Source: Dokdonia sp. PRO95 (GTDB lineage: Bacteria; Bacteroidota; Bacteroidia; Flavobacteriales; Flavobacteriaceae). From it: 64,000 nt of DNA. A model generated the notes under the pieces. That model searched no databases and had not been told where the DNA came from. It was given only the letters and a program-made list of their open reading frames with translations. Positions 386 through 58,460 of this stretch are shown one piece after another (positions within the stretch are counted from its first letter, which is position 1; each line of letters starts with the position of its first letter). A program made the translations under genes and the position numbers. Location: assembly GCF_000355805.1 (NCBI RefSeq), contig NZ_CM001837.1, positions 1,375,408 to 1,439,407 on the forward strand, in the 5' to 3' direction.

Positions 386-1335
386 TACCAGTCTTTCTCT
401 GTTTTGACTTTAGCACCTTTTACTTTCTGTGCATTCATCTTTTCTTGCGTTTTCTTCTCTTGATCCTGCATAGCTTTTAGTAAGCTTTGCACTTGTTGAG
501 GAGATAACTGTCCCTGTTTAGGCTGTGGTGGAGGTTGTTTTTTATCTTCTTCACCGTCGCCACCATCTTGTTTTTTATCCTTGTCTTCAGGCTTTCCATT
601 ATCATCTTCCTTCTTTTCGCCATCATCTTCTTTTTCCTCGCCTTTATCATCGGTTTCATCTTTGTCACCGTCTTCTCCTTCTTTCTTATCTCCATCACCT
701 TCTTCGTTTTCCTTCTTCTCGTCTTCTTTTTTGTCCTCGTCTTGATCTTCTTTGTCATCGTTATCACTACCGCCGCCACCATCATTTTCTTTCTCTTTCT
801 TGGCTAGTTGTAAATTATAACGAGTTTCTTCATCTGTAGGATCTGCACGCAACGCATTTTTATAAGCCTCTACTGCGCCATCCCATTGCTTTTGTTGGAA
901 TAAAGCATTCCCAAGATTGTGAAACGCTTTATGTTTCTCTTTCTTAGTTTGAGCAACTGCAGTGGCTTTAACCAGCGCATCTGTGCTTTCTTCCCATCTT
1001 TTGTTCTTGTAGTAATTGTTACCCGCATTATACTTTGCAGGAACACTCTCTGGTGTCAATGAAATTGCTGCTCTTAAATTTGATTCCGCTTTCGCGAAAG
1101 CGTTAAAATCAACCACTCCACCTTCTTGATTACCCATAGCTTCTGTTCCTTCTACAATGAGCTCTCGAGCTTGATCTGCATAAGGATTTTCTGGAGGTGC
1201 TGCTTTTTTATCTTGGGCTGTTGTGGTAAACGAAAGGAGCAAGGCAACTATAAAAAGTATGTCCTTAGCACCTTGTAAAGGAGCCATCGTTATGTGTGAT
1301 ATGTTAGTTATAAACTGTTTCATTGTACATTTCAC
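385..1335 (-). CDS. batC: BatC-like TPR protein with acidic/lysine low-complexity tail
   Basis: The protein has 316 residues. A hydrophobic segment at about residues 24-40 ending TTTAQ is a signal peptide. Two or three tetratricopeptide repeats follow (about residues 62-180; NLGNALFQQKQWDGAVEAY is a clear TPR). Residues about 185-270 are almost entirely Asp, Glu, Lys, Gly and Asn, then comes a Pro/Gln linker and a short C-terminal helix. TPR proteins in bat operons act as scaffolds for the VWA proteins BatA and BatB. ATGs at 1335, 1323 and 1287 are in frame; the last gives the most normal signal peptide. The gene carries the CGCTTTCGCGAAAGCG palindrome at 1087, read as AFAKA. It follows batB by 41 bases. 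Confidence 0.85.
   Translation of the reverse strand: MKCTMKQFITNISHITMAPLQGAKDILFIVALLLSFTTTAQDKKAAPPENPYADQARELIVEGTEAMGNQEGGVVDFNAFAKAESNLRAAISLTPESVPAKYNAGNNYYKNKRWEESTDALVKATAVAQTKKEKHKAFHNLGNALFQQKQWDGAVEAYKNALRADPTDEETRYNLQLAKKEKENDGGGGSDNDDKEDQDEDKKEDEKKENEEGDGDKKEGEDGDKDETDDKGEEKEDDGEKKEDDNGKPEDKDKKQDGGDGEEDKKQPPPQPKQGQLSPQQVQSLLKAMQDQEKKTQEKMNAQKVKGAKVKTEKDW
1087..1102. repeat. Palindrome CGCTTTCGCGAAAGCG in batC
   Basis: Perfect 16-mer, read as AFAKA. Confidence 0.95.
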
Positions 1336-1376
1336 TATTACTTCACTCTTGTTATGGAGTGGATTGGTGAGGATGT

Positions 1377-2411
1377 TTAATTATCGTTGAATAGGTTTAG
1401 TTTTTTAAGCCAGCTAGTCTTACGGTCTAGTAAAAAGATGTCTAAAAACAATAGTAATAATCCAGCTCCTAAAAACCATTGAAACTGATCTTCAAAGTCT
1501 GCAAATTGCTTTGCCTCAAACTCTTTCTTATCCATTCCGTTGAGCAAATTCTGTACCGTTTCTACTACCGTGGCAGTATTGCTCCCATCAATATATTCCC
1601 CATTTGCTCCCGAGGCAATCTCTTTTAATGTGGTGTCATCTAGACGAGTAATTACAGTCTCGCCATTTTGATCTTTTTTATAAGACTGTACGATACCATT
1701 TCGTTTTAATGGAATAGGGCCACCTTCTTGTTTACCCACACCTATTGTAAATATGCGTATACCTTCATCGTTTGCTTGCTCTGCTATATTAGAAGATTCA
1801 CCTACGTGATCTTCACCGTCAGAAATGATAAATAATACTCTATTGGTTTGTTCTTCGTCGTTATAGTAGGTTTTGGCAAGTTCTATGGCTTCACCTATAG
1901 CTGTTCCTTGACTAGATAGCATATCTGTGTTCATCTGGCTTAAGAAGAGCTTTGCACTACTATAATCTGTAGTAATAGGAAGCTGCGGGTAAGCACTACC
2001 AGCATATGCGATGATACCTATACGATCACTGCCTAGATTATTAATAATCTGAGTAACGAGTTGTTTTGATTTTTCTATTCGATTAGGAGCGATATCCTCT
2101 GCAAGCATAGATTTTGAGACATCTATAGCAAAAACCACATCTACACCTTCTCTTTTTACCGTTTCTAGTTTAGTTCCTATTTTAGGATTTACAAGCCCTA
2201 CGACTAGAAATAATATGGCAAAACATACTACTATGACTTTAAGACCAGTCTTAAAGTAGGACCTGTTTGGACTTAGTTTCTTAAGTAACTTAGCATTGGC
2301 AAATTTCTTCTGTGCATTGCGTTGCCAGATTATTACACCAAGGTACAAGAGTATCACCGCCGGAATAGCCAGCAGTAACCAAAACCATATTTTTTCTTCT
2401 AATAGATACAT
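1377..2411 (-). CDS. batB: BatB VWA-domain membrane protein
   Basis: The protein has 344 residues, with membrane segments at about 8-28 and 57-75 and a C-terminal one at about 312-330. Between them lies a von Willebrand A domain with an intact metal-ion-dependent adhesion motif, DVSKS (97-101), and a later SDGED. It resembles batA next door, as expected for the BatA/BatB pair in Bacteroidota aerotolerance operons, where the VWA domain faces the periplasm. It lies 28 bases after batA on the same strand, so it is clearly part of the moxR-to-batD operon. Assignment of B rather than A rests on gene order. Confidence 0.9.
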   Translation of the reverse strand: MYLLEEKIWFWLLLAIPAVILLYLGVIIWQRNAQKKFANAKLLKKLSPNRSYFKTGLKVIVVCFAILFLVVGLVNPKIGTKLETVKREGVDVVFAIDVSKSMLAEDIAPNRIEKSKQLVTQIINNLGSDRIGIIAYAGSAYPQLPITTDYSSAKLFLSQMNTDMLSSQGTAIGEAIELAKTYYNDEEQTNRVLFIISDGEDHVGESSNIAEQANDEGIRIFTIGVGKQEGGPIPLKRNGIVQSYKKDQNGETVITRLDDTTLKEIASGANGEYIDGSNTATVVETVQNLLNGMDKKEFEAKQFADFEDQFQWFLGAGLLLLFLDIFLLDRKTSWLKKLNLFNDN

Positions 2412-2439: not shown

Positions 2440-3444
2440 TTAAACAAAACTCTTGAAGACCGTGTATTTCAACAGTAATTCTATGAGTAGTAGTAACCCA
2501 GCAAGTAAAACCAGCGGGCGATATTTTTCTTCGTAGTTCGTGTATTTGAACTCCTCTACATCTGTACGTTCAAGCTTATCTATCTCATTATAGATTTCTT
2601 GTAGCTTCTCATTATTAGTTGCTCTAAAATATTGCCCACCTGTAGTAGCTGCAATTTCTTCTAGTAGCTCCTCATCAATAGTTACTTGGATATTCTCATA
2701 CACAAATGTTCCATTGGCATTACGAGCGTACGGTGATAATGCCATCCCGTTTGTTCCCATCCCGATGGTATAAACTTTAATTCCAAACTCTTGAGCAAGT
2801 TCTGCAGCAATACGAGGGTCTATTTGCCCTGCATTATTCTCACCGTCTGTCATTAAAATAATCACCTTACTCAGTGCCTTACTGTCTTTAAGACGGTTTA
2901 CACCAGTGGCGAGTCCCATGCCTATGGCAGTTCCTCCTTCTATAATGTTATTGTATTGAATACTTTTAAGTGCACTAAGTACAATACTCTTATCACTGGT
3001 GATAGGAGTTTTTGTAAAACTCTCCCCTGCATATTCTATAAGACCTATACGATCATTAGGGCGTCCATTTATAAAGCTGGCAGCTACTTTTTTAAGAGCT
3101 TCTAGTCTATTAGGGCGCAAATCTTTTGCTAGCATACTGGCAGATACGTCTATTGCGATTACAATATCAATACCCTTTGTAGTCTTTGTCTTAGTAGATA
3201 CCTCCACATTACGAGGTCTTGCTAGTGCGATGATTATTAAGCTTAATGCAGCAAGGCGTAATATGAATAATAACGGTCTAAGCTTAGGTAGTAAGCTGCT
3301 TCCAGTTTTAAAACCTTTGATGCTTGAAAGCTTTACGGCTGGGGTTTGCTTCTTGCGTTTCCATATATACCAAGCAATGGCAACTGGCAGTGCTAGAAAC
3401 AGCCAGAAAAACTCAGGATTAGTAAATTCAAAATTGCTTAGCAT
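2440..3444 (-). CDS. batA: BatA VWA-domain membrane protein
   Basis: The protein has 334 residues. Membrane segments lie at about 10-28 and 56-75, a VWA domain follows with the metal motif DVSAS (99-103) and a TDGEN motif, and there is a C-terminal membrane segment at about 310-329. It is the first of the two VWA proteins of the bat operon. Its ATG overlaps the stop of the upstream gene as TAATG at 3444, so translation is probably coupled. The family is thought to form a membrane complex with BatB and the TPR protein, using MoxR as a chaperone-like ATPase; that partnership is family knowledge and is not shown here. Confidence 0.9.
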   Translation of the reverse strand: MLSNFEFTNPEFFWLFLALPVAIAWYIWKRKKQTPAVKLSSIKGFKTGSSLLPKLRPLLFILRLAALSLIIIALARPRNVEVSTKTKTTKGIDIVIAIDVSASMLAKDLRPNRLEALKKVAASFINGRPNDRIGLIEYAGESFTKTPITSDKSIVLSALKSIQYNNIIEGGTAIGMGLATGVNRLKDSKALSKVIILMTDGENNAGQIDPRIAAELAQEFGIKVYTIGMGTNGMALSPYARNANGTFVYENIQVTIDEELLEEIAATTGGQYFRATNNEKLQEIYNEIDKLERTDVEEFKYTNYEEKYRPLVLLAGLLLLIELLLKYTVFKSFV

Positions 3445-5108
3445 TAGTTCTCTTCTTTTTCTTTGGCTTGGAGTTCGATACTTTGCATCACGCGCTCTGC
3501 GATTTCTTTTCCGTAGGGATCTTCATCGTGCCAACTAATAAATAGTTGCTGAATCACATTTTCTGCTTGAAATGTTATGAACGCATACTCTCCAGCATCT
3601 ACAGTTCCTTTTTCTTGATCAATTACTTGAGATCCACTACCAAAAGTTTTGATACCTTCTGCACCATTCGGTGTTGCAAACTTCTCACTCTTAAGAATAT
3701 CTGCCGAGAATCCGTTTGCTTCAAACATAGCAAGCTGGCTAGATATTAATTGTTCCACTTTCACGTCGGCTCCTTTTGGGAACTTAAATTGGTATACACC
3801 AATAGTCACATTTGCAGGAAGCGTTTGCCATCCAAATGCCGTTGCTTCAATCTTTCCTTGAGCCTCTGGTGGTAATGGAACTTCTTGACGTGTAAGAACT
3901 TTTGGAGTACTTACTACCATAGAAGGGATACCATATTCACTCGTGATCCAGTTACCTTCGGCGAGCTCTCTTGTCATGTTTCCAAAAACAAAATCCTTCA
4001 CTTCACTATACCCTTTAACAGCGATTCCTATTCCTGTAGCTAGTAGTAAAATTGCGAGGATACCGCCTATTCCAGAAAGCCAAAGTTTCCTTTTACGCTT
4101 TCGCGAAAGCGCCTCTCTATAATCTTCCTGCATCATTAATTCCTCAACAGTAGGAGGTGGTAATGCTTCTCTGGTTTGTTTTACAATATCTTCTACCGCA
4201 AGCCTATCTGCTTGTGCCTTTCCTTCTGGTGGATTCACACGCGCAAATTTTACAAGGTCTGCACGTTTAAAAATATCTTTTATACTAGCGATAGTATGCT
4301 TGCTGAAATCTATGTGACCACTAGCACGTTCCATCTCAAGACGGGCAATAAGCTCGTCTGTGGTGCTTTCCATAGAGCGGTCATACACCTTTTCTTCATA
4401 ATAGCGGCGTATAGCGTCTGTGAGTACAGAGTAGTATTCTTTGTATTTAGCTTCGGCAATGAGGTTTTTATTATCTAACTCTGTAAGCGTAGCCATTGCT
4501 TGCTCAAAAGGAGGGATATATTGTTCTGCCTCTTTTTGCTTTTTATTACGACGTAATAACCACCATAAGAATAATGAAATCGCTACCCCTACTGGTATAA
4601 TCCATAACAGATATTTCCACCAGTTGCTGTAGTCTCTTGGCAGTTCTATGATAGGTTTAATGTCATATAATCCTTGATTTACGGTGTCAAGAATCACATT
4701 GTTTACTTCAACAAGAAAGGTGTCTGTCTCAACCGTTCTTGTGCCTATAATTACTTTTTGTTTTGGGATTACATAGCGACCACTGTCAAACTGTGTCAGG
4801 CCATATTTTTTAATAAGCTTCATCCTAGCAGAGGTAGAACTTGCTGTATCAATTGCGTAACTCTCAATAACCTCCAGGGGACTAAAAGTCTGTCCTTCTG
4901 GAAAAATAACAGCTTCACCATCATTTGCTAGCGCCTCAATGGTGTAATTGATTTGCTGGCCTATGAGAATATTTGTAGAATCTATTTTTGCACGCACATC
5001 ATCTTGCGCTTGAACCTGAAGTGAAAGAATAAATAGCAATAAGAATAACGATAACGCACGAAGAATCGCATTCTTAGGAGTTGTTATGTATGTTATGTTG
5101 TTATTCAT
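3444..5108 (-). CDS. BatD-like large membrane protein of the bat operon
   Basis: The protein has 554 residues. A signal peptide ends near residue 34 (LQVQAQ). A BatD-like N-terminal domain follows (ARAKIDSTNILIGQQINY style beta region), then membrane segments at about 165-186 and 344-366 separated by a cytoplasmic helical stretch of about 150 residues. The C-terminal domain (about 380-554) has no family I recognise. Position between DUF58 and batA is where Bacteroidota operons usually carry such a protein. It holds a copy of the palindrome at 4096 read as LSRKR, directly before the second membrane segment. The last base of the stop codon is the first base of batA. Confidence 0.7.
   Translation of the reverse strand: MNNNITYITTPKNAILRALSLFLLLFILSLQVQAQDDVRAKIDSTNILIGQQINYTIEALANDGEAVIFPEGQTFSPLEVIESYAIDTASSTSARMKLIKKYGLTQFDSGRYVIPKQKVIIGTRTVETDTFLVEVNNVILDTVNQGLYDIKPIIELPRDYSNWWKYLLWIIPVGVAISLFLWWLLRRNKKQKEAEQYIPPFEQAMATLTELDNKNLIAEAKYKEYYSVLTDAIRRYYEEKVYDRSMESTTDELIARLEMERASGHIDFSKHTIASIKDIFKRADLVKFARVNPPEGKAQADRLAVEDIVKQTREALPPPTVEELMMQEDYREALSRKRKRKLWLSGIGGILAILLLATGIGIAVKGYSEVKDFVFGNMTRELAEGNWITSEYGIPSMVVSTPKVLTRQEVPLPPEAQGKIEATAFGWQTLPANVTIGVYQFKFPKGADVKVEQLISSQLAMFEANGFSADILKSEKFATPNGAEGIKTFGSGSQVIDQEKGTVDAGEYAFITFQAENVIQQLFISWHDEDPYGKEIAERVMQSIELQAKEKEEN
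4096..4111. repeat. Palindrome copy in the BatD-like gene
   Basis: Perfect 16-mer, read as LSRKR. Confidence 0.95.
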
Positions 5109-7260: not shown

Positions 7261-8127
7261 ATGAAATTTTCAAGAATTATTCAAGGTTGCATGACGTGGG
7301 GCGTGTGGGGTAAGCAATTCAATCAGCAGCAAATGATTGAGACTATGAACCATTGTTTAGAGAAAGGCATTACCACTTTTGATCATGCAGATATTTATGG
7401 TGATTACACGACAGAGGGAGAATGGGGTAACGCTTTCGCGAAAGCGAATATCTCCAGAGACACCATACAGATCATCAGCAAATGCGGTATCCAGATGAAA
7501 GGCGATGCACGTGCAGAGAATACCATAAAACATTATCAATACGACAAAGAATACATTATCTCAAGCGCCGAAAGATCGCTGAAAGAGCTGCGTACTGAAT
7601 ATCTAGATTTATTCTTATTGCACAGGCCAAGCCCACTTCTAGATCCAGACGAAGTGCAAGAGGCCGTGAGCCTATTGCAGCAGCAAGGGAAGATTAAAGA
7701 TTTTGGGGTATCTAATTTTACACCGCGTACTATTGATTTATTGGCTACAAAATGTGAGGTAACCGCAAATCAAGTTGAGATTTCTATTACCGAGCGTTCT
7801 TCACTTACAGATGGAACGCTTGACTATATGATGACTCACAATATAACTCCTATGAGTTGGAGTCCGCTGGGGTCTGTTTTTAGAGAAGACACACCCCAAA
7901 ATGTACGTATCACGAATAAATTGAAAGAACTGGGTGATAAGTATAACGCAACCGAAGACCAACTACTACTAGCGTGGTTACTTAAACATCCAGCAAATAT
8001 TCATCCAGTTATAGGAACTACAAGTAAAGATCGTATCACAAATGCTGTCGAAGCAGTAGCGATTAATCTTGAAAGAAAAGATTGGTTTGAACTGCTGGAG
8101 GCCAGCACAGGAGAAGAGGTGGCGTAG
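7261..8127 (+). CDS. Aldo/keto reductase (YdhF-like)
   Basis: The protein has 288 residues. It carries the aldo/keto reductase tetrad: Asp and Tyr in TTFDHADIYGDY, Lys in IISKCGI and His in LFLLHRPSP. The C-terminal WSPLGS and GTTSKDRI segments bind NADPH in the family. Overall it resembles the E. coli YdhF group of NADPH-dependent reductases; the substrate is unknown. The palindrome at 7431 is read as AFAKA shortly after the YG of the active site. The next gene, an SDR reductase, starts 28 bases later, so the two oxidoreductases are probably co-transcribed. Confidence 0.9.
   Translation: MKFSRIIQGCMTWGVWGKQFNQQQMIETMNHCLEKGITTFDHADIYGDYTTEGEWGNAFAKANISRDTIQIISKCGIQMKGDARAENTIKHYQYDKEYIISSAERSLKELRTEYLDLFLLHRPSPLLDPDEVQEAVSLLQQQGKIKDFGVSNFTPRTIDLLATKCEVTANQVEISITERSSLTDGTLDYMMTHNITPMSWSPLGSVFREDTPQNVRITNKLKELGDKYNATEDQLLLAWLLKHPANIHPVIGTTSKDRITNAVEAVAINLERKDWFELLEASTGEEVA
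7431..7446. repeat. Palindrome copy in the aldo/keto reductase gene
   Basis: Perfect 16-mer, read as AFAKA. Confidence 0.95.
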
Positions 8128-8932: not shown

Positions 8933-10069
8933 ATGATCAATAAACGCCTTCTCGTAAAGAACTTACTCGCTCATCATGACGAGAACAGTTTTTATGACAA
9001 AAAGCGTAAGATTGACATTAGTAACAAAGAAGGGAAAGCAAAATTTTTAAAGCACATTTGTGCGCTTTCCAATAGTAATCCAAAGAACAATTCTTTCATA
9101 GTAATAGGAGTAGACGATGGTGAAAACACTATTGTAGGTGTACCTTTTTTTGATGACAGCAAACTGCAGAATCTCATAAATGCATACCTAGATAATCCTC
9201 CTATAATATCTTATGAGAATATACCTTTTCCTACGTTGCCGCAGGATAAAGTAGTGGGACTTGTTACCATACGAGCACAAGATAAGCTTACCGCATTACG
9301 GCGTAATATCTGGAAATACTGGGGCGGCACGGTCTTTTTTAGAGATGGGAGTATATCTATGCCTAAAACATTTAAGTCGGATATTGTAGATGTAAATAGT
9401 GAGATTGTTGCAGCAATAGAAAATCACGCAAAAAATAGCATAGGTCTTACGCTAGATGGTGTAATGGATTTTGTAAATCACCGTCACAAAGACATGGAGA
9501 GCACTTATAAAGTGTTTAAAGAGCAGTTTGTGTTGTGCTGGGCTGGAAATAAAAAAGTGGTTAAAGGTCAGGCATATTACTCTCGGGTGGATATAGAACT
9601 CATTAATGAGCAGGTAAAGCTATTTTACTCAGCACTAGATGAGGTAACGATTACTTATGATGAGGATTGCTTCAAAATTCAAGAGTTTGTACACTTGGGA
9701 GTACAAGAGCAATTTAAATATTATCCACTTGAGGAGGTTGAGATACGCTTTCGCGAAAGCGGTACTTATACCATTGACACTAAGCTAGTTTTTGAACCAC
9801 CAGTATTTGATAAAAAGACGTTGTATCATATTTTTAATAACAACAATGTTATTTTTTATAAGCTGAAAAGGGGAATACACCTTAATCAAGAGGAGTGGAA
9901 TGATTTATATAATCTAGCTAATACCTATTTAATTTGTTATTTAAATGGTTTTGAAACCGCCATACAGAAGTTGGTAGATTTAAAACCTTATTTGAAAGCG
10001 TTAGACGGCGCTGTCTACGGCAGATATAAGGAGGCAATGCGTATTTTAAGAAAAGTACGTTATGAATAA
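8933..10069 (+). CDS. AlbA_2 (Schlafen-like) domain protein
   Basis: The protein has 378 residues. The N-terminal 150 residues match the AlbA_2 / Schlafen-AlbA type domain: ALSNSNPKNNSFIVIGVDDG and IVGVPFFDDSKLQ are characteristic. The rest is unassigned; it holds a palindrome copy at 9746 read as RFRES. Proteins of this group are often labelled ATP-binding or transcriptional regulators, sometimes in defence loci, but nothing here shows which. It starts 27 bases after the SDR gene and overlaps the start of the phosphoesterase gene by 8 bases. Confidence 0.75.
   Translation: MINKRLLVKNLLAHHDENSFYDKKRKIDISNKEGKAKFLKHICALSNSNPKNNSFIVIGVDDGENTIVGVPFFDDSKLQNLINAYLDNPPIISYENIPFPTLPQDKVVGLVTIRAQDKLTALRRNIWKYWGGTVFFRDGSISMPKTFKSDIVDVNSEIVAAIENHAKNSIGLTLDGVMDFVNHRHKDMESTYKVFKEQFVLCWAGNKKVVKGQAYYSRVDIELINEQVKLFYSALDEVTITYDEDCFKIQEFVHLGVQEQFKYYPLEEVEIRFRESGTYTIDTKLVFEPPVFDKKTLYHIFNNNNVIFYKLKRGIHLNQEEWNDLYNLANTYLICYLNGFETAIQKLVDLKPYLKALDGAVYGRYKEAMRILRKVRYE
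9746..9761. repeat. Palindrome copy in the AlbA_2 gene
   Basis: Perfect 16-mer, read as RFRES. Confidence 0.95.
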
Positions 10070-10898: not shown

Positions 10899-12092
10899 AT
10901 GAATTTTAGCGCCCAGCCGCACATTGCGAGATGGTTTATTATCATCGCTTCGCTTATCATTACCACACTCATCTTGTGGAATGTGTCGCTGTTTTTTGAT
11001 CAGCTCAAGGATGCAGAGCGTTCTAAGGTAGAGATCTATGCCGCTGCCTATAGGGCATTTGCAAATACGAGTGATGTAAATCTAGAAACTAGAAATAGGG
11101 ACACCCGCATTCTTTCTGACGAGCTTATATCCTTACAGCAATTTATAATAGGAGATAATAGAACAATCCCTATACTTTTATACAGCATAGAAGAAAATCA
11201 CTATACACCCAGAAATATTAAGAGAGAAGATAAGCTCACTCAAGAAGACTTTAAACGACTTGCAGAGGAGTATGCACTCATAAACGAGCCTATTGTGATA
11301 GGTTATGACGGAGTAGATAGCCAGATTTTGTACTACGGGAACTCATCTGTTATTAATCAGCTTAAGTATTTTCCTATTGCGCTTATTGTGATTGTCATTC
11401 TCTTTGTGGCATTGATTTACTTCTATTATTTAACCTCAAAAGCAGGAGCTCAAAATCTGCTTTGGGCAGGTATGGCAAAGGAAACTGCGCACCAGATAGG
11501 TACACCACTTTCATCCCTTGTAGGCTGGACAGAAATTCTCAAAACAGAAAATGTAGATCCAGATTATATTGCAGAGATGACAAAGGATATCAATAGGCTA
11601 GAGACGATTACAAATCGTTTTAGTAAGATAGGCTCTGTCCCAGATCTAGAAGAAGTAGATATTATAGCAGAGACACAAGAGGCTTATGATTATCTAAGTA
11701 AGAGAAGTTCAAAACTCATAAACTTTACACTAGACGTTCCTCAAGGGGAGTTGCCTGTAATGCTCAATAAAGAGCTTTATGGATGGACTTTTGAGAACCT
11801 CATTAAAAATGCGATTGATGCCATGAAAGGTAAGGGAGCATTGACAATTGCTATATCACGTGACACGAGATTTGCCAAAATACTCATTACAGACACAGGT
11901 AAAGGAATCCCAAAATCTAAGTTTAATAGTGTCTTTGAACCAGGCTTTACTACAAAAAAGCGTGGTTGGGGTCTTGGTCTTTCCCTCGCGAGGCGCATTG
12001 TAGAGGAGTATCACGATGGGCGCATTAAAGTATTAGAATCTGAAGTAAATAAAGGAACCACTATGCAAATTTCCCTACGACTAGCCGAATGA
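10899..12092 (+). CDS. Membrane sensor histidine kinase
   Basis: The protein has 397 residues. Membrane segments at about 12-32 and 155-177 enclose an extracytoplasmic sensor domain of about 120 residues. The H-box is AKETAHQIGTPLSSL (His in AHQIG) and the ATPase domain has N (ENLIKNAIDA), G1 (DTGKGIP) and G2 (GWGLGLSLARR) boxes. There is no HAMP domain visible and no response regulator gene beside it. It overlaps the Nudix gene by 4 bases (ATGA), so the two are expressed together. The signal sensed is unknown. Confidence 0.92.
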   Translation: MNFSAQPHIARWFIIIASLIITTLILWNVSLFFDQLKDAERSKVEIYAAAYRAFANTSDVNLETRNRDTRILSDELISLQQFIIGDNRTIPILLYSIEENHYTPRNIKREDKLTQEDFKRLAEEYALINEPIVIGYDGVDSQILYYGNSSVINQLKYFPIALIVIVILFVALIYFYYLTSKAGAQNLLWAGMAKETAHQIGTPLSSLVGWTEILKTENVDPDYIAEMTKDINRLETITNRFSKIGSVPDLEEVDIIAETQEAYDYLSKRSSKLINFTLDVPQGELPVMLNKELYGWTFENLIKNAIDAMKGKGALTIAISRDTRFAKILITDTGKGIPKSKFNSVFEPGFTTKKRGWGLGLSLARRIVEEYHDGRIKVLESEVNKGTTMQISLRLAE

Positions 12093-12676
12093 ATACACGT
12101 ATAAAAAATATAAAGGAAGAGCTCATAAGTGACCAGTGGGCAACGCTTAAAAAAGTCCATTTTGATTATCAGAATGAAGATGGCTCTTGGGATCAGGTGC
12201 GCCGCGAAGTTTATGATCGTGGTGATGGAGCTTGCGCGCTGCTTTATAATGTAAATAGGCAAACGGTATTACTCATAAAACAATTTAGACTGCCAGCTTA
12301 TCTTAATGAGCACGATGGTTTCCTCGTTGAGGCATGTGCAGGCATGATAGAAGATGAGACCCCAGAGCAAACGATTATTAGGGAGATAGAAGAGGAGATG
12401 GGTTACCGCATTGATAGCCTTACGAAGGCGGGTGACTTTTTTATGACTCCTGGCGCAAGTACGGAGCGTATTCATATGTTTCTTGCGTCATATGAGGAAA
12501 AACAAAAAGTAAGTGATGGTGGTGGTTTGGCAACAGAACATGAAGATATTACTGTGGTTGAGTACGCTTTCGCGAAAGCGTTAAAAGCATTAAAAAATGG
12601 TGAGATAAGAGATGCAAAAACCGTAATCTTGCTGCAAAATTTGGCGCTTTCTGGAATCATGGAAAGATCTAACTAG
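12089..12676 (+). CDS. Nudix hydrolase (NudK-like)
   Basis: The protein has 195 residues. A complete Nudix box is present: G-MIEDE-TPEQTII-REIEEE-MGY. Length and the context around EACAGMIEDE and FFMTPGASTERIHMF resemble GDP-mannose or ADP-ribose pyrophosphatases of the NudK/NudF type. It probably cleaves a nucleoside diphosphate sugar and is cytosolic. It starts inside the stop of the histidine kinase gene (4-base overlap). A palindrome copy at 12565 is read as AFAKA in the C-terminal helix. Substrate choice between GDP-mannose and ADP-ribose is open. Confidence 0.88.
   Translation: MNTRIKNIKEELISDQWATLKKVHFDYQNEDGSWDQVRREVYDRGDGACALLYNVNRQTVLLIKQFRLPAYLNEHDGFLVEACAGMIEDETPEQTIIREIEEEMGYRIDSLTKAGDFFMTPGASTERIHMFLASYEEKQKVSDGGGLATEHEDITVVEYAFAKALKALKNGEIRDAKTVILLQNLALSGIMERSN
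12565..12580. repeat. Palindrome copy in the Nudix gene
   Basis: Perfect 16-mer, read as AFAKA. Confidence 0.95.
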
Positions 12677-19692: not shown

Positions 19693-19708
19693 CGCTTTCG
19701 CGAAAGCG
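19693..19708. repeat. Intergenic palindrome between greA and the lipoprotein gene
   Basis: Perfect 16-mer, 15 bases before the lipoprotein start codon. Confidence 0.95.
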
Positions 19709-20283: not shown

Positions 20284-22458
20284 TTAAAATTTAAGAGTAG
20301 CTCCTACTAAGAAGTTAATTCCCGCCTGCGGATAATAGCCCGCTCCTTCAATGGTAGTAATCTCATTAGGCACTGAGAAATCATCATTATAGGTGAAGAA
20401 GTATCCATTTGAAATATATTTCTTATTAAAGATATTATTCACAAGTCCATTGAGGAGAATAGACTTAAATACCGGAACCTCCTTAATCTCGTATTGAATA
20501 CTCAAATCATTTAAGAAATAAGAATCAAGTTTAGAAAGTTCGCTATCTATATTACCCATATATTGCTCTCCTACAAATTTCGATAAGAAACCTATGCTAA
20601 AATCTGCATTAGGCTTATAGGTAAGCATATTACTAGCTACGAGATTAGGCGAGTATGAAATATTTGTATTACCTAGGTTTGTAATCGCACCATCTAGATT
20701 AAAAAGAAAATCTCTATTCTTATTTGTGCTTAATGCAATATTAGGTTGTAAAGTAAACTTAGAACTTAGCTTTATAGCAGCATCTATTTCTATACCTGCT
20801 CTATAGCTATTACTATTAATTCGGATAGGCGCTCCTACATTATCAAGTTCACCAGTAGGGACTAACTGCCCGTCATAATCCATAAAATAACCATTCACAT
20901 TTAAGGTGACGGTCTCTGTATTTAATCTCCATCCTAGCTCAAAGTCGTCTAGTTTTTCTGCGCGTGGATTGCCGTCTTCAAAATCTCCACGGTTGGGCTC
21001 ACGGTTTGCACGGGCATAAGAGGCATATAACTGATTTTCTGCATTAATCTTATAGCTCAAACCTAATTTTGGATTAAAGAACTCATAGTTTTCATCTACC
21101 AAAAATTCATCAAGGTCAGAATTGATTCCGTCAGTTTTATAAGTGATAAATCGACCTTGAATGTCTGCATAAAATTGCCATTGATCATTTAATTTAAAGT
21201 TCGCTTTCGCGAAAGCAGAAAACTCATTCTTACTTCCCGTTCCAAAATAGTAATTATCTCCTAGCTCAGAATCACCAGCAAATCGTGCCCATATCACTTC
21301 GCCAAAATGGTCTCCTCTATAAATGCTACCCAAAGCACCACCTACAAAGTCAACCATGTTGTCCTTGTAATTTGCCGTTGCACTTGCCACATAGAAGTCG
21401 TTATCTAGCCAGCGACGTCTTATAATATCTGATGTTTCTATGGTTTCACTACCTATAACTACAGGGGAAATACTGTAAAAAGCAAGATCTTCATCCTCTT
21501 TATATTCTTCAAAAAAGCCTCTACCATAGGTGTAGTTTAAACTGAGCTGTGTGCTCCAGTTATTGTCATAACGCTGGTTCCAGTGCAATTGGTAATGATC
21601 TTGCTTGTAATCATCTACTTGATTCTCGTGAAAGCGTGTCTCACCATTCTCATCTGTAAACTGTCCTGCAGGGTTAAAGGTTCTATCCTCGGCTAGCGTC
21701 TCTGCATCTATCCCAAACCAAGATTGGTATGTAACCTCAGATCCTGCAAAATTGATAAGCTTGATAAGCGTATTATCATCCTTATAGGCTGCTTGTAGAA
21801 AGTAAGATTTAAGATCAGACGATGCACGGTCGATATAACCGTCAGATTTAATTTGTGATAAACGACCAGATATCTCAATATGGTCATTGAGTAATCCAGT
21901 ACTAAATTTCACATTATGACGTCGCGTCCCAAAAGATCCGAAAGAGTTGGAAATCTCACCATATGCCTCATTAGAAATTGCATCTGTAAGAATATTAAGA
22001 CTGGCTCCAAAAGCTCCAGGTCCATTCGTAGAAGAACCTACTCCACGCTGTAGTTGTAAACTTTCTACGGATGATGTAAAATCTTGAAGATTTACAAAAA
22101 AGGTAGTAAGACTTTCTGAGTCATTATAGGGAATTCCATTTATAGTAACGTTAATCCCTTGGTTACCTGTACCACGTACTCGGAAACCAGTGTAACCTAT
22201 GCCAGCACCAGCGTCTGAGGTAGTCACTACGCCTGGTAAAAAGTTAAGCTGCGTAGCAATGTCTTGTCCTAAGTTGCGCTCTGCAATTTGTTTTTTTGTA
22301 AGGTTGGAATGCGTAATAGGTGAGTCGGCTTTTACTCGTACAGAACGTACTAAAACTTCATCAAGTGACTCTACTTTTGTAGTGTCTACCACTGTTTTCT
22401 CTTGTGCACTAGCTGTAATTCCTGCAAGCGCAATCATACTCAATAGGATCTTTTTCAT
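20284..22458 (-). CDS. TonB-dependent receptor, TPP-riboswitch controlled
   Basis: The protein has 724 residues. Signal peptide to about residue 18 (ITASAQ), plug domain about 45-150 (LPGVVTTSDAGAGIGYTGFRVRG), then a 22-strand-type barrel ending in GATLKF. A clear TPP riboswitch precedes it at about 22617-22702, so the likely substrate is thiamine or a precursor. In Bacteroidota TPP-controlled TonB receptors are known and have been shown in some species to import thiamine. A palindrome copy at 21202 is read as AFAKA. No thiamine biosynthesis gene follows it. Confidence 0.88.
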   Translation of the reverse strand: MKKILLSMIALAGITASAQEKTVVDTTKVESLDEVLVRSVRVKADSPITHSNLTKKQIAERNLGQDIATQLNFLPGVVTTSDAGAGIGYTGFRVRGTGNQGINVTINGIPYNDSESLTTFFVNLQDFTSSVESLQLQRGVGSSTNGPGAFGASLNILTDAISNEAYGEISNSFGSFGTRRHNVKFSTGLLNDHIEISGRLSQIKSDGYIDRASSDLKSYFLQAAYKDDNTLIKLINFAGSEVTYQSWFGIDAETLAEDRTFNPAGQFTDENGETRFHENQVDDYKQDHYQLHWNQRYDNNWSTQLSLNYTYGRGFFEEYKEDEDLAFYSISPVVIGSETIETSDIIRRRWLDNDFYVASATANYKDNMVDFVGGALGSIYRGDHFGEVIWARFAGDSELGDNYYFGTGSKNEFSAFAKANFKLNDQWQFYADIQGRFITYKTDGINSDLDEFLVDENYEFFNPKLGLSYKINAENQLYASYARANREPNRGDFEDGNPRAEKLDDFELGWRLNTETVTLNVNGYFMDYDGQLVPTGELDNVGAPIRINSNSYRAGIEIDAAIKLSSKFTLQPNIALSTNKNRDFLFNLDGAITNLGNTNISYSPNLVASNMLTYKPNADFSIGFLSKFVGEQYMGNIDSELSKLDSYFLNDLSIQYEIKEVPVFKSILLNGLVNNIFNKKYISNGYFFTYNDDFSVPNEITTIEGAGYYPQAGINFLVGATLKF
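21202..21217. repeat. Palindrome copy in the TonB receptor gene
   Basis: Perfect 14-base core, last base A; read as AFAKA. Confidence 0.95.
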
Positions 22459-23785: not shown

Positions 23786-23890
23786 AATATACAAAAGTGA
23801 GTATTATAATGATAACCAAAGCATGTTATTACCTACTATATAATTCCCCATAATTAATTGTAAATTTGCCCCCTTAAATGAGGAAGAGCA

Positions 23891-23906
23891 CGCTTTCGCG
23901 AAAGCG
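23891..23906. repeat. Palindrome copy in the leuS leader
   Basis: A perfect CGCTTTCGCGAAAGCG lies 19 bases before the leuS start codon and about 22 bases after a -7 box (TAAATTTG, 23861-23868). In RNA it would form an 8-base-pair hairpin near the ribosome entry site. Confidence 0.9.
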
Positions 23907-39928: not shown

Positions 39929-41482
39929 TTATTTAACTTGGTGAGCTGGTTTGAGAAGGTCGTTTACTGTTTTTACTGGATTAAAAGTAAGTAGTGGAAC
40001 TTCTATAAATATGGTGTTCCAGTGTGCCATTGCACCATTCCAAAGTCCTGGATGTTCAAGTGCTTTTATTTTCTTTCCTTGGTAGCTTTTTGAAGCGATA
40101 AATCCTGCTTTGTAATCCACATAATTGAGAAGATTGTACTTCTCTCCTTTGTAATTTTTTACACCGCAAATAATGTCAACTGGATTAAAATGAGTGGCGT
40201 TTTTAAGAATTTCTTGCTGCTCCTTGTCATCAGGGTTGATTTGTACACTTTCTATAATTTGTAAGCTCTCAGTACCATCTTCATCAAGCACCCAGAAAGG
40301 TCCACCTCCTGGTTCGCCTTCATTTTTTACCATACCACAGACACGTATGGGGCGGTCTAATAGATTTCTGTAATGAGCAATTTGTGTACTCTGGTCAAGA
40401 CTGTCATGATTTGCAGGAAGTCTCAAGCATAGATTGTTTTTTAAGAAGGTAGCTATCTCTTGACGCTCGTTGTCCAAAAGGTCTCTTTGTTTGTCGATTT
40501 TCTTTAGATATTCAAAAGATGTTGCTTGAAGTGAAAGCAACTTTCCAGCAAGCATTTTTTTATAATAAGCAACTTGAGTCTTGTACTTATTTACAACTAC
40601 ATTATCAATATTCTTAATGAATATGATATCTGCATCTTGCTCATTTAAATTTTTAATTAAAGCTCCATGCCCTCCTGGTCTAAATACGAGTTTTCCATTC
40701 TCATCTCTTAAAAGAGTATTTGACTCTGTAATGGCAACCGTATCTGTAGCCGAATCTTGGTAAGAATAAGATATGTCAAAGGTCACACCGGTCTTACGTT
40801 CAATATAATCTTTACGTTTATGAAAACGTTTTGCAAATCTCTTCTGATGTTCTTTTGAAACCGTAAAGTGAAGGCGAGCGACAGTTCCTTTGGTAGCATA
40901 CAACGCGCCTTCAAAAAGGTGCTCTTCAAAAGCTGCTGCTACATATTTTTTATAACTATGAAAAGGAAATAGGCCTTTGGGTTTTTTTCCAAAATTAAGT
41001 TCTTTCTCCTCAAGCATTATTTTTACAAAGCGCAATCTGTTTTCATTAATGTCTGCACCATCTTTGCCATACTTTTCTTTAATGCGTGCTCTTATTTTCT
41101 TGTAGAAAGGGAAGCTCTCTAAGCCAACAAAGAATAATCTTAACTCTGGAACTCCTTTTTTATTAATGTACGCATTAATGCTTCCATCATTAGGGTTATA
41201 ATCTTCTACAAATTCAAATAGAAATTTAAACATTCTAGTAGCAGCACCAGAGGCTGGGGTAAATTTTAATGGATTTATACCATCTTTTCGATCCTCATAA
41301 TGTTGTACAAGTTGTTCTTGTTCTTCGGGCTTAAGTACTATGAGTCCATTTCCTTTTGTAGCCGCACTGCGTAATTTTGTAAAGGGAATACCTTGCTTAA
41401 GAATCTCGAACTGTTGTTCTACTTGATCTCTGGTTACACCTAAGTCTGTGATGTGCTCTATGTCTTGTTCTGTGATTTTCAA
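39929..41482 (-). CDS. DUF4301 protein
   Basis: The protein has 517 residues and appears cytosolic. The N-terminus (ITEQDIEHITDLGVTRDQVE) and motifs such as KFTPASGAATRMFKFL and FRPGGHGALIKNLNEQDADI match DUF4301 from Bacteroidota. The glycine-rich GHGALI and the nucleotidyltransferase-like SGAATRMFK hint at a sugar-phosphate nucleotidyltransferase relation; this is inference. It overlaps the NadR-like kinase gene by 4 bases, so they are co-translated. Confidence 0.85.
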   Translation of the reverse strand: MKITEQDIEHITDLGVTRDQVEQQFEILKQGIPFTKLRSAATKGNGLIVLKPEEQEQLVQHYEDRKDGINPLKFTPASGAATRMFKFLFEFVEDYNPNDGSINAYINKKGVPELRLFFVGLESFPFYKKIRARIKEKYGKDGADINENRLRFVKIMLEEKELNFGKKPKGLFPFHSYKKYVAAAFEEHLFEGALYATKGTVARLHFTVSKEHQKRFAKRFHKRKDYIERKTGVTFDISYSYQDSATDTVAITESNTLLRDENGKLVFRPGGHGALIKNLNEQDADIIFIKNIDNVVVNKYKTQVAYYKKMLAGKLLSLQATSFEYLKKIDKQRDLLDNERQEIATFLKNNLCLRLPANHDSLDQSTQIAHYRNLLDRPIRVCGMVKNEGEPGGGPFWVLDEDGTESLQIIESVQINPDDKEQQEILKNATHFNPVDIICGVKNYKGEKYNLLNYVDYKAGFIASKSYQGKKIKALEHPGLWNGAMAHWNTIFIEVPLLTFNPVKTVNDLLKPAHQVK

Positions 41483-42039
41483 ACTAAAAGTGTATTTATA
41501 GATTCGGTAGCAGTTACCATTCTTTCTGGAACGGTCCCTTTTACAAGAATAAATGGTTTTTTATATTTCTCTAAGTTATGTTTAAAATAATTAAACATTT
41601 CCTCTCTTCTTTCTGGGCGATCTCTTAAGTCATCTTGCTCCCAAGGAGTATCTATGTACGTTAAAAGATACAAATCATATGTGTTTTCCAATGCCATTTT
41701 CTCTAATAATTCTGGACACCAGCCATTATAATAAGCCTCGCTATATGTTTTTGTAGTGAGTAAATCAGTATCGCAAATAACAAGATTTGTGGCATTTTTT
41801 ATAGCAGTATTCTCTAGTTTAATTTGGCCTTTGGCTATCGGTAACAAATCCATTGGTCTACATATCTTTTGCTCTGTGTCCCATAAATCTTGAAGATATT
41901 GTCTTGCATATTCGGGAACTAGGGGTGCGCTGTAATGCTGAGCTAGCTTTCGCGAAAGCGTACTTTTACCACTACTTTCTGGTCCAATAAGGCAAACTCT
42001 TATGCAATTACTGCTGACTTGTCTAAGTTCTTCTTCCAT
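41479..42039 (-). CDS. NadR-like nucleotide kinase (ribosylnicotinamide kinase type)
   Basis: The protein has 186 residues with a P-loop GPESSGKST (19-27). LVPEYARQYL, ICDTDLLTTK and the lid DDLRDRPERRE match the kinase domain of NadR, which phosphorylates nicotinamide riboside. It overlaps the pnuC gene by 40 bases, which fits uptake plus phosphorylation of nicotinamide riboside. Its palindrome variant at 41945 lies in the P-loop region (STLSRKLAQ), so the repeat is read right next to an essential motif. Confidence 0.85.
   Translation of the reverse strand: MEEELRQVSSNCIRVCLIGPESSGKSTLSRKLAQHYSAPLVPEYARQYLQDLWDTEQKICRPMDLLPIAKGQIKLENTAIKNATNLVICDTDLLTTKTYSEAYYNGWCPELLEKMALENTYDLYLLTYIDTPWEQDDLRDRPERREEMFNYFKHNLEKYKKPFILVKGTVPERMVTATESINTLLV
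41945..41960. repeat. Palindrome copy in the NadR-like kinase gene
   Basis: Perfect 14-base core with first base A; read as LSRKL next to the P-loop. Confidence 0.95.
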
Positions 42040-43861: not shown

Positions 43862-44575
43862 TTAGCAGTCATTCCATGAGTTCTCTTCAAAAGCTGTGCC
43901 TATAACGACCATTGTTGCCCCAGCCTCATATGCCAGCTCCATTTGCATAGAATTTCTAATACCTCCGCCCACGATTACTGGAATGTTGAGTGTATCACAA
44001 ACAGCTTTGATAATTGAAGGTTTTACTGCGGTTTTTGCACCACTCCCTGCTTCTAGATAGATACATTTTTTACCCAAATATTGTCCAGCAAGTGCCGTGT
44101 CTACTATGCGTTCTGTGTCATCTTGTGACATTGGGCTCGTCTTGCTCACTCGTTGCACCGCGGTTACAGATCCGCCGTCTATGAGTAAATATCCAGTAGG
44201 GATCACCTCAAGCTTGCTTTGTTGTACTGCTCTTGCAGCTTTGGTTTGCTGGCCTATTAAAAATTCGGCATTATCACCAGAAAGTAGTGATAAGAATAAT
44301 ATTGCGTCTGCATCTGGAGTAACCTGATTGTAATTTCCAGGAAACAGAATAATGGGTAATGCTGTTTCGGCCTTTAGAAGTTGGACCACAGTTGCTGTTT
44401 TAAGTGCTGGATCTGTACTTCCGCCTATAAAAATGTGAGTTGTAGTGGTGGGTATTTTTTTCAAGTACGCTTTCGCGAAAGCGGGATCCAGTTCAAACTT
44501 ATCTGGATCTATAAGAATTGCGAGTAGCTTAACGCCTTTGTCTCTGTTGTGTATTATCTGGGAGTATATAGTCAC
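43862..44575 (-). CDS. Phosphoglycerol geranylgeranyltransferase (GGGP synthase)
   Basis: About 238 residues. KLLAILIDPDKF, FIGGSTDP, LFPGNYNQVTPDADAILFLSLLSG, YLEAGSGAKTAV and VIVGGGIRN are the phosphate- and prenyl-binding motifs of GGGP synthase, a TIM-barrel enzyme that makes ether-type lipid precursors and is usual in Flavobacteriaceae. The longer frame would begin at 44602 with a TTG; I chose a GTG at 44575 because other family members start about there (VTIYSQII). A palindrome at 44468 is read as AFAKA. Confidence 0.9.
   Translation of the reverse strand: MTIYSQIIHNRDKGVKLLAILIDPDKFELDPAFAKAYLKKIPTTTTHIFIGGSTDPALKTATVVQLLKAETALPIILFPGNYNQVTPDADAILFLSLLSGDNAEFLIGQQTKAARAVQQSKLEVIPTGYLLIDGGSVTAVQRVSKTSPMSQDDTERIVDTALAGQYLGKKCIYLEAGSGAKTAVKPSIIKAVCDTLNIPVIVGGGIRNSMQMELAYEAGATMVVIGTAFEENSWNDC
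44468..44483. repeat. Palindrome copy in the GGGP synthase gene
   Basis: Perfect 16-mer, read as AFAKA. Confidence 0.95.
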
Positions 44576-44618
44576 CACACGAAGGTAGGAATTGAAGTAC
44601 AAAGAATGCTATTCATTA

Positions 44619-45242
44619 TTAATAACCGTAGACACAGGTAAATCCCTCGAACTCCATAAAGGTGAGATCATAGGTGGAGATTGCGCCTTTATAATTTACC
44701 GTGGCTGTAGTCTTGGCATCATCAAAATTAAAATCTGCTACATCTATATGCTTTAAAAAGCTCAGTCCTTCTTGAGCATAGAGTTTATAAAGTGATTCCT
44801 TTGCTCCCCATACAATGGTGAGTTTGCGCATGCGAGCATCTGCATTAGTAAGTGTGTAGTATTCTTCTATAGGTGTAAATTTATGAGCAATGCGCAAGAT
44901 TTTGTCGCGTTGTTTTTCTATATCAATACCCACAGGTTGATCACTCACAATAATGGCAGTAAAGGTGTAGCTGTGTGTTATAGAAATATGCTTTCCATCG
45001 TGTAGATGTGGTTTTCCATTCTTATCGTAATATAAATCAAAGTCTGTGTATCCAGCTTCGGCTAGGAGGTGGCGTATACTCATGAAGCCCCTTTGGTGAA
45101 GCTCAGACTTCATTCCTTGTAGTCTATTCTGGCAATGATCTGTAAGTTTTATATTTCGCGAAAGCGTAGTAATATCTTCCTCAATCTTCCAAATATAGAC
45201 TGTTGTACTCGAGCTAACTGTTATCGTTTTGTAAAGAGGCAT
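44619..45242 (-). CDS. 4'-phosphopantetheinyl transferase
   Basis: The protein has 207 residues. Motifs of the Sfp/AcpS superfamily are present: [22 protein letters not shown] and [11 protein letters not shown]. It moves phosphopantetheine from coenzyme A to carrier proteins; in this group it may serve fatty acid or flexirubin-type synthesis. It lies 16 bases before the GGGP synthase frame and diverges from ahcY. A half palindrome at 45154 is read as LSRN. Confidence 0.93.
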
Positions 45243-46630: not shown

Positions 46631-46687
46631 GAGAGAGTCGCATAGACGGAACAATTTTTTCGCTTTCGCGAAAATGTTAAATATAAG

Positions 46688-48100: not shown

Positions 48101-48116
48101 CGCTTTCGCGAAAGCG
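48101..48116. repeat. Intergenic palindrome between the TM2 and Lrp genes
   Basis: Perfect 16-mer, between two convergent genes, 36 bases after a terminator. Confidence 0.95.
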
Positions 48117-52250: not shown

Positions 52251-52335
52251 TTTGTGCGCTTTCGCGAAAGTTAACATGTGAACTTGACGAGCTCCTTAAA
52301 TCTAGAGGCCTTTATTTCAATAGAATCAGACTTAA

Positions 52336-53223: not shown

Positions 53224-53312
53224 TACTTGATTTTAGAAATGCAAAGTTCGGTAATAAGTTACTAGGAATAGGAGAACTTTTTCGCGAAAGCGAACTCTAA
53301 AGAAGAGTGCGA

Positions 53313-55706: not shown

Positions 55707-55915
55707 AATTTCAAATGTAGTAAATATTGCAATGCAAGTGTGTTATGCTTTCGCGAAAATATGCTCTCCCTTACTATTATATCCTTTATTAGAGAGCTTC
55801 TATTTTTAATAAATAAGAAGTGTGACAGGAACTTAATGAACACAAAAAATCCCTAGACGAACTACCATCTAGGGATAACTAAGCATACTAATTGTTTACT
55901 ACAAGCAAACAGATA

Positions 55916-57400: not shown

Positions 57401-57404
57401 TGTG

Positions 57405-58460
57405 CTACTTAGATAGAAACTCTTCTAAGAATCTACCTATTAATATGGGTACAGGATAATCTTTTATAGTTGAGATAGGAATCCCTTTTCTTTCAGTGGT
57501 TGCTACATCAACTACCCAGAAGGTTGTGTGTAGGTGCTGGTGAGATAATTTATGGATAATCGGTTTCTCATTAAATCTTGTAATTGCTGCAATGTCCATA
57601 TCATTAGCTTGCTTTGAGGTTGTAACGCTTTCGCGAAAGCGGGATTCTTCACCATCAGTAAGCGCGGCGTCAAGTTCAATTACTGGAAATTCATAGAGTC
57701 CTTGCCAGATTCCTTTACCAGTGCGTTGTTGTAATACGGTTTTCTCATCCTTATCTCTAAAGACAAGATAGTTGAGGTAGCGATTACGCACCTTAGTCTT
57801 TTTGAGCTTTACAGGGAGTTCAGAAACTTTGTTCTTTTGTAATGCTACGCACTTGTCATTATATATACAATGCAGGCAGTATGGATTTTGAGGTTTGCAT
57901 TGTATAGCGCCAAACTCCATAATAGCTTGGTTAAAATCTGCTGGGCGTTTTACATCTATGAGCTCTTGAGCAAGTGCTTTAAACTCTTTAATGCCAGGAG
58001 TGCTATTTATAGGAGTGTCTATGCCGTATACTCTAGATAGTACTCTATATACATTACCATCTACTACGGCTGTAGGCTCATTAAAACTTATGCTTGCGAT
58101 GGCACTAGCGGTATAATCACCTACTCCTTTTAATTTTTTAATTTCTTCATAGGTGTCTGGAAAGACGCCGTCATATTCATTTACAATAATTTGGGCAGAT
58201 GCGTGAAGGTTTCTGCCGCGGGAATAATAGCCTAATCCTTGCCAAAGTTTAAGTACTTCCTCTTCTGTCGCATTTGCAAGATCTTGTACTGTAGGAAATG
58301 ACTTTGTAAAAGCCAAATAATAGGGCAATCCTTGCGCTACTCGCGTCTGTTGAAGAATAATTTCTGAGAGCCAAATCTTATAAGGATCCTTAGTGTTGCG
58401 CCATGGCATATCACGTTTGTGTTCTAAGTACCAAGCAATGAGTTTGTTAGAAAATGACAA
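57405..58460 (-). CDS. mutY: A/G-specific adenine glycosylase
   Basis: The protein has 351 residues. It shows the helix-hairpin-helix KLKGVGDYTASAI, the catalytic region WLSEIILQQT and AVVDGNVYR, and an iron-sulphur motif C-x6-C-x2-C-x5-C (CKPQNPYCLHCIYNDKC). The C-terminal Nudix-like domain binds 8-oxoguanine. It removes adenine opposite 8-oxoguanine. A palindrome copy at 57626, read as RFRES, lies in the variable part of that C-terminal domain. Confidence 0.96.
   Translation of the reverse strand: MSFSNKLIAWYLEHKRDMPWRNTKDPYKIWLSEIILQQTRVAQGLPYYLAFTKSFPTVQDLANATEEEVLKLWQGLGYYSRGRNLHASAQIIVNEYDGVFPDTYEEIKKLKGVGDYTASAIASISFNEPTAVVDGNVYRVLSRVYGIDTPINSTPGIKEFKALAQELIDVKRPADFNQAIMEFGAIQCKPQNPYCLHCIYNDKCVALQKNKVSELPVKLKKTKVRNRYLNYLVFRDKDEKTVLQQRTGKGIWQGLYEFPVIELDAALTDGEESRFRESVTTSKQANDMDIAAITRFNEKPIIHKLSHQHLHTTFWVVDVATTERKGIPISTIKDYPVPILIGRFLEEFLSK
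57626..57641. repeat. Palindrome copy in mutY
   Basis: Perfect 16-mer, read as RFRES. Confidence 0.95.

Follow-up and report, generated by a model that had tools for sequence, protein, structure and literature searches.

An iterated palindrome of Dokdonia sp. PRO95 with composition-coded flanks and near-regular spacing, a possible anchor for chromosome organisation

The analysed window, a stretch of 64,000 nucleotides from Dokdonia sp. PRO95 (positions 1375408-1439407 of a genome of one contig, 3,305,093 bases), contains 13 copies of the 16-base palindrome CGCTTTCGCGAAAGCG and 15 copies of its 14-base core, located both within and between genes. All 15 were found at the positions given in an earlier sequence-only reading of this DNA, and thirteen of them are the full 16-mer, as that reading had it; the copies at 21202 and 41945 each miss one outer base. 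The nine further sites that had been described as keeping the inner ten bases, TTTCGCGAAA, also exist and bring the number of these cores in the window to exactly 24, although their starts had been placed up to 3 nt off. The sites, with their state in four other Dokdonia genomes (G006, G008, G016 and G003) where it was informative, are as follows.

1087-1102: perfect 16-bp palindrome in open reading frame (ORF) 385-1335, minus strand, AFAKA frame; unchanged in G006, G008, G016 and G003
4096-4111: perfect 16-bp palindrome in ORF 3444-5108, minus strand, LSRK frame
7431-7446: perfect 16-bp palindrome in ORF 7261-8127, plus strand, AFAKA frame
9746-9761: perfect 16-bp palindrome in ORF 8933-10069, plus strand, RFRES frame
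12565-12580: perfect 16-bp palindrome in ORF 12089-12676, plus strand, AFAKA frame; one core base different in G016
19693-19708: perfect 16-bp palindrome, intergenic; one core base different in G016
21202-21217: 14-bp palindrome in ORF 20284-22458, minus strand; differs from the 16-mer in its last base
23891-23906: perfect 16-bp palindrome located where ORF 23878-26802 (plus strand) begins, probably upstream of the true start
24447-24456: one-armed site, left arm intact
28405-28420: perfect 16-bp palindrome, intergenic; retained in relatives despite indels in the flanks
29838-29847: one-armed site, right arm intact, near-palindrome CGGTTTCGCGAAAGCA
33509-33518: one-armed site, right arm intact
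34116-34131: perfect 16-bp palindrome, intergenic
36232-36241: one-armed site, left arm intact; no site in G016 or G003, which differ here by gapless point changes
38198-38213: perfect 16-bp palindrome in ORF 37017-38552, minus strand, RFRES frame
41945-41960: 14-bp palindrome in ORF 41479-42039, minus strand; differs from the 16-mer in its first base
44468-44483: perfect 16-bp palindrome in ORF 43862-44602, minus strand, AFAKA frame
45154-45163: one-armed site, right arm intact
46664-46673: one-armed site, left arm intact
48101-48116: perfect 16-bp palindrome, intergenic; not present in G016 and G003, where the alignment has indels
52260-52269: one-armed site, left arm intact; in G003 and G016 the palindrome is complete; forms a pair with 53280, with one gene in between
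53280-53289: one-armed site, right arm intact; no site in G016 or G003
55749-55758: one-armed site, left arm intact
57626-57641: perfect 16-bp palindrome in ORF 57405-58460, minus strand, RFRES frame

The abundance of the element was far above chance, as had been proposed. Twenty-one window matches to the 16-mer were found at up to two mismatches, compared to none in 100 dinucleotide shuffles (mean 0, largest 0), and the Markov expectation for the 16-mer was 7e-5 (order 4) or 0.014 (order 5). Eleven of the 15 14-mers lie inside called ORFs and use all three frames (5, 3 and 3 copies, read as AFAKA, RFRES and LSRK). The earlier count of ten perfect copies within genes was right as to the three frames and one too high in number, with nine of the 13 perfect 16-mers in ORFs; by eye, the copy at 23891 is probably located 5' of the true gene start. 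Genome-wide, 577 copies of the 16-mer were counted in 3.305 Mb (none of a reversed control) and 794 copies of the 14-mer, approximately one site per 4 kb. An unremarkable genomic count or absence outside the window, which the sequence-only reading had named as grounds for abandoning the idea, was not seen. The palindrome is thus overrepresented throughout the genome, in genes as well as in spacers, and because 125 of 295 sites were intergenic (170 coding) while intergenic DNA makes up about 10% by crude ORF calls, it is enriched between genes. The proposed likeness to the HIP1 element of cyanobacteria held in that both are iterated palindromes, genic and intergenic, clade-limited and not explained by coding. 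Among the 170 coding copies, 25 encode AFAKAQ, often near the end of apparent signal peptides (e.g., 535989, 536721 and 537373), 37 fall within residues 1 to 40 and 12 match a loose signal-peptide pattern, though a few of these are doubtful. In the window, the palindrome at 41945-41960 overlaps residues directly after a P-loop-like motif (ESSGKSTLSRK); its core differs by one base in G008 and by none in G006, G016 and G003. A near copy at 61182-61197, CGCTTTCGCGCAAGCG, carries a single change within the core and is of a rare, decayed kind.

The anatomy of the element was determined in two samples of the same genome, of 864 kb and 1.264 Mb. The 864-kb sample held 150 perfect 16-mers and 51 one-mismatch copies, 47 of which differ at position 1 or 16 only, and single deviations of HIP1 are likewise biased to the outermost bases. 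Among 262 cores, 60 lacked one GC arm and kept the other, the changed arm being AT in 29 of the 60, and compensating changes were confined to three sites, all at the outermost pair. The 1.264-Mb sample comprised 375 cores, made up of 295 full 14-mers and 80 one-armed sites, with none lacking both arms. Inside the lost arm, one-armed sites often continue with ATGTGA or ATTTGA, compared to GCGTAA in full sites.

The element as a whole spans about 60 bp and is mirror-symmetric, with approximately 20 nt of 5' flank on each strand that are poor in C and rich in G and T. Counted from the centre, the C content of the 5' flank rose from 3.5% (10-13 nt) through 6.7% (13-18 nt) to 8.4% (18-25 nt), compared to a background of 18.6-18.9% beyond 800 nt, and the bias faded by 30-40 nt. 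It was present at coding and intergenic sites, slightly stronger at the latter, and the trimers GGG, GTT, GGT, TGT and GTG were enriched. Six control motifs from the same genome, five of them palindromes, did not show it. A scan of named records returned at least 111 stretches; among the 80 matches listed, 36 were from Dokdonia, 31 from Nonlabens and 13 from other records, the last being left out of the flank and Nonlabens-set analyses. The flank bias was also observed at these Dokdonia and Nonlabens loci. Four of the 31 Nonlabens-set loci are titled Flavobacteria bacterium BBFL7, which we take to belong to Nonlabens. A flank periodicity of about 3 or 6 nt was visible over all sites and not significant in 105 strictly intergenic ones, and is not claimed. 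The 60-bp element with its composition-coded flanks, its spacing and its half-site pairs are new here and go beyond the earlier note; no description of the 14-mer, of a Dokdonia or Nonlabens palindrome or of a flavobacterial highly iterated palindrome (HIP) was found in the open-licence literature searched.

Alignment of the window to G016 and G003 (78% identity where aligned) and to G006 and G008 (92%) revealed strong conservation of the sites. Intact 14-mers numbered 12 and 13 of 15 in G016 and G003, where 0.5 were expected, and 15 and 14 of 15 in G006 and G008, where 4.8 and 4.5 were expected; in a second G006 region, 16 of 19 were intact (6.2 expected). The core was nearly invariant while its surroundings changed, and this included the intergenic site at 28405. 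Relative to G016, the flanks had changed more than control sequence (0.27 versus 0.21), with T to G changes in 31 of 272 positions (0.114; control 0.040) and T to C changes in 5 of 272 (0.018; control 0.091). Substitutions of non-C flank bases in G016 yielded C in 20 of 168 cases, compared to 28% in controls (Fisher p 5.6e-7), and C was similarly avoided in G003 (p 4.3e-6, not independent, as G003 is close to G016) and G008 (p 0.001). The flanks thus change fast and yet avoid C, which argues that they are held to a composition and not to a sequence. The comparison of orthologues, suggested earlier as a way to separate insertion from point mutation, gave a mixed outcome: several differences were gapless (36232, and one G016 site with a single base changed in PRO95), whereas some other absences coincided with indels (48101, and two of four G016 sites missing in PRO95). 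At a mean protein identity of about 58%, the palindrome was kept at the same codons in 3 of 11 coding sites that had a match in the carrier genome G230, and in 1 of 7 that had one in the Nonlabens set, which, on these small numbers, favours shared ancestry with losses over separate invention. As judged from the alignments, the sites appear to be protected from mutation and kept one by one by selection.

The spacing of the sites was markedly non-random. Only five of 193 gaps between 14-mers in the 864-kb sample were under 1 kb, compared to about 41 expected, so that neighbours repel one another. The coefficient of variation of these gaps was 0.61 versus 0.99 for random placement, the lowest of 2000 simulations being 0.78. 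Gaps between cores of 3.1-3.5 kb were in excess in the 1.264-Mb sample (55 seen, 27.4 expected from a fitted gamma distribution), to a degree not attained in any of 500 simulated scans. In G230, 13 such core gaps were seen where 5.5 were expected (P 0.004, pre-chosen bin), and the 31 Nonlabens-set loci contained no pair under 1 kb (5.5 expected). On a larger scale the density was flat, with 19-27 14-mers in each of eight 100-kb blocks. The GC skew switches sign in the interval 0.9-1.2 Mb, which was taken as the origin, and a parS-like site lies nearby at 1228752. With the origin so placed, one-armed sites counted by eye numbered 18 left and 18 right on one replichore and 21 left and 23 right on the other. 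Sites for nucleoid occlusion and segregation are unevenly distributed between origin and terminus, and given the flat density the segregation role of this type offered by the sequence-only reading is unsupported. The Noc, SlmA, matS and parS sites resemble the present element in being scattered, of similar length and read by sequence-specific proteins, but they number tens and are unevenly placed, in contrast to the approximately 800 uniformly spread sites found here.

One-armed sites tended to occur in pairs whose outer arms are retained. Left-then-right pairs within 5 kb, in which the outer arms are kept, were observed 16 times versus 8.1 in label shuffles (p 0.0002), compared to 10 versus 8.1 for the opposite order, and the median distance of adjacent one-armed pairs was 1.0 kb. 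The pair at 1639270 and 1639406, 136 bp apart, corresponds to two full palindromes in G016. In one alignment to G003, the gene between 52260 and 53280 is in place and the left member is a full palindrome. The full palindromes of the relatives, together with the pairing of outer arms, suggest that facing arms across a short gap are dispensable. Insertion splitting a palindrome was considered as the source of the one-armed pairs and dropped in view of these G016 and G003 counterparts.

The distribution of the palindrome among genomes was narrow. The 16-mer was found in 20 of 59 genomes (PRO95 included), comprising all 18 of the genus Dokdonia that were searched (138-711 copies each), one genome of another genus with 495 copies and one with 4 on a single contig. 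The 14-mer was present in 80 of 397 genomes of the family, with more than 400 copies only in g1 (Dokdonia; two genomes drawn, 794 and 857 copies), g11 (probably Nonlabens; three genomes, 578-664) and g210 (one genome, 408); the next highest counts were 19, 17 and 16. Sixteen of 296 genomes of the phylum had a match, and none except that of PRO95 had more than 4. Very high counts are therefore found only in three genera of Flavobacteriaceae, Dokdonia, probable Nonlabens and g210, among the genomes searched. An RpoB tree of the 30 best matches, outside which the g11 genomes fall, grouped Dokdonia with g210 (support 94/80), adjoined by G184, which has only 9 copies. No comparable palindrome was seen in 40 kb of G184 or in 20 kb each of four further genomes. 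In G230, a second palindrome, GCCTGCCGGCAGGC (L234-L238, L261-L280), occurs in 6 copies in 500 kb, some in near-identical surroundings, and was absent in the PRO95 sample; a 20-kb stretch of G140 (L348) holds 10-mers up to 16 times over both strands and is probably a repeat array.

The scattered copies in other genera were often located in shared islands with metal-efflux genes, which by sight of the translations encode an RND pump, P-type ATPases and a multicopper oxidase. Such an island, with clusters of the palindrome, was present in several Flavobacteriaceae genera (L221, L222, L225, L226, L229, L230, L231 and L239), and a site spacing of 933 bp was repeated in four genomes. A larger island carried 15 14-mers in the 80 kb examined in G116. 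Where two islands were 70-80% identical, the site was intact in 92 of 167 comparisons, with 2.9 expected, the comparisons sharing sites and not being independent; the islands have therefore probably spent much of their time in carrier hosts. The larger island (L327:10736-16795 in G116; L330 in G091) also includes a four-gene module with an MksE protein (PF21980), which from its gene order we presume to be a Wadjet/MksBEFG defence condensin. The 16-mer was held by 41 viral stretches as well. Protein scans of five viral loci showed a Mu-type portal, tape-measure, baseplate or integrase protein at four of them and a type III restriction pair at the fifth, so that integrating phages seem to carry the palindrome too. 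A 30-base consensus had no match at E below 2 among named plasmid and phage records. Clusters of the palindrome flag DNA that has moved into other genera.

Several known kinds of iterated sequence were considered as explanations. One candidate is a signal for recombination or end processing that would resemble a bidirectional Chi: its G/T-rich 5' flanks would favour RecA loading, and the palindrome would let it work from both sides. Known Chi sites are short and are not palindromic, whereas the Dokdonia element is palindromic, longer and two-sided. Chi sites also show orientation bias with replication; the one-armed sites here are about equally divided between left and right on both replichores. 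The close pairs moreover keep their outer arms, and an enzyme reading from the 3' side, as at Chi of E. coli, would favour the inner ones. The density of one site per 4 kb is similar to that of Chi, and a G/T-rich strand context is common to both. The trimers enriched in the 5' flanks would suit such a signal. According to PMC3763553, RecA prefers TGG repeats, which resemble Chi, and the carriage of sites by mobile islands and phage-like contigs would also fit; we nevertheless regard a signal of this kind as unlikely. No better placed is a signal for DNA uptake and self-recognition, spread by biased transformation, one of the roles listed by the sequence-only reading. The element resembles, from sequence alone, the DNA uptake sequences of Neisseriaceae and Pasteurellaceae in being overrepresented in and between genes; it is biased towards perfect copies, kept at orthologous places and enriched between genes, and Riemerella columbina, a member of the same family, preferentially takes up its own DNA according to the relevant part of PMC7965970. 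Uptake sequences as treated in the pertinent section of PMC1939737 are neither palindromic nor so evenly spaced, while the motif found here is a perfect dyad, and the two-sided flank bias and the half-site pairs would be left unexplained.

An improbable explanation, in our estimate, is a palindrome of the HIP1 type made or kept by an orphan DNA methyltransferase with linked repair. HIP1 (GCGATCGC) and the alternate HIPs of cyanobacteria are, according to PMC4390886, likewise very frequent, clade-limited palindromes in genes and spacers, and both the outermost position of most single deviations and the frequent AT in place of a GC arm would fit. HIP1 differs in having 8 bp compared to 14-16 bp here, and the composition-coded flanks, the repulsion and the 3.1-3.5 kb gap are features of the present element; a search of the main text of PMC4390886 returned neither of the words 'spacing' and 'evenly'. 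Unlike the model, the carriers have no methyltransferase in common in the three families searched. Among 11 carriers, PF00145 (C5 methyltransferase) was missing in 6, PF02086 was missing in 5 and PF01555 was over cut-off in only 2, with G281 and G006 having none of the three over cut-off; other families were not included. A methylation site, as had been suggested, is thus unsupported for these families, and the flanks and the spacing would remain unexplained. Least probable is a small mobile repeat, or an insertion-split palindrome with target duplication, resembling repetitive extragenic palindromic (REP) elements or miniature inverted-repeat transposable elements. The absences that coincide with indels and the likeness of one-armed pairs to a split site speak for it. 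The gapless differences, the full palindrome at 52260 in G003 with the gene between it and 53280 still present, the two full counterparts of the 1639270/1639406 pair in G016 and flanks that share composition and not sequence speak against it, so the mobile repeat of the sequence-only reading found no support. In several cases an occupied site and its empty counterpart differed without any gap, and hence without an inserted unit, though some other differences had indels, and no search for a REP-associated transposase was made.

The explanation that we favour, tentatively and at somewhat less than an even chance, is that the palindrome is an anchor for a putative symmetric DNA-binding protein that most likely organises the chromosome. 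A protein acting on double-stranded DNA, and not a hairpin or a coding need, is indicated by how exact the core is, by how few compensating changes occur and by the dependence on the composition of the flanks. The recognition element would consist of the 14-16 bp dyad and the C-poor, G/T-rich 5' flank of about 20 nt on each strand, and a symmetric, sequence-specific factor would read it as double-stranded DNA, each half (arm and outer flank) being bound by one half of the putative factor. Halves that have become separated could still serve as a pair, as if the intervening DNA were looped out. Selection would keep the sites singly and uniformly round the chromosome, with about 3.3 kb as the favoured distance between neighbours, and their most likely use would be as regularly placed anchors or loop bases. 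What the analysis shows is the element with its flanks, its conservation, its spacing and the pairing of half-sites; that a protein reads it, and that this reader is dimeric, loops the DNA and has an architectural role, is inferred. The regular spacing, flat distribution, site-by-site upkeep and separable halves fit a chromosome-organising anchor best.

A number of observations weigh against the anchor reading. The pair correlation had no peak at twice 3.3 kb, and the bins at 8.5-9 and 13-13.5 kb were also high, so that any ruler would act between neighbours only and part of the structure may be noise. In G230, the excess of 3.1-3.5 kb gaps holds only for the bin chosen beforehand, the scan maximum was at 7.4 kb and the 14-mer alone gave P 0.06; the flank bias was weaker and shorter (C 19-20% at -18 to -9, background 22-24%), 2 of 98 cores lacked both arms, and outer-arm pairing was not found (7 left-then-right and 7 right-then-left pairs). 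In PRO95, the lost arm showed no significant overall tendency to be the one towards the nearer neighbour (47 of 79, p 0.15), and the avoidance of C in the flanks was not significant in two G006 comparisons (p 0.11 and 0.08). It is not obvious why an architectural protein should need a strand-specific G/T bias. The methyltransferase, ParB and MksE families searched yielded no reader protein. An extra ParB-family protein (PF02195) was rejected as the reader, since 10 of 11 carriers had a single ParB_N match (G010 had two) and most non-carriers also had one. The MksE condensin, a candidate prompted by the palindrome-bearing island, was rejected because it occurs in 2 of 22 carriers; MksE matches are present in the Dokdonia genomes G004 and G015.

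A more specific form of the anchor reading, which we consider doubtful, is a chromosome-wide ruler in which back-to-back directional half-signals would mark loops or domains of about 3.3 kb, with a putative reader sensing the exact core and the keto/amino composition of the flanks. If true, such a ruler would give bacteria an equivalent of oriented boundary elements. To our knowledge, no function has yet been settled for highly iterated palindromes, and the element of Dokdonia provides a sharper case than other HIPs, having an exact 14-bp core, flanks defined by composition only, halves that can be separated and a near-regular spacing, and its genera include marine members in culture. Such properties yield testable predictions that can separate chromosome organisation, recombination and uptake as the role of the palindrome in these bacteria.

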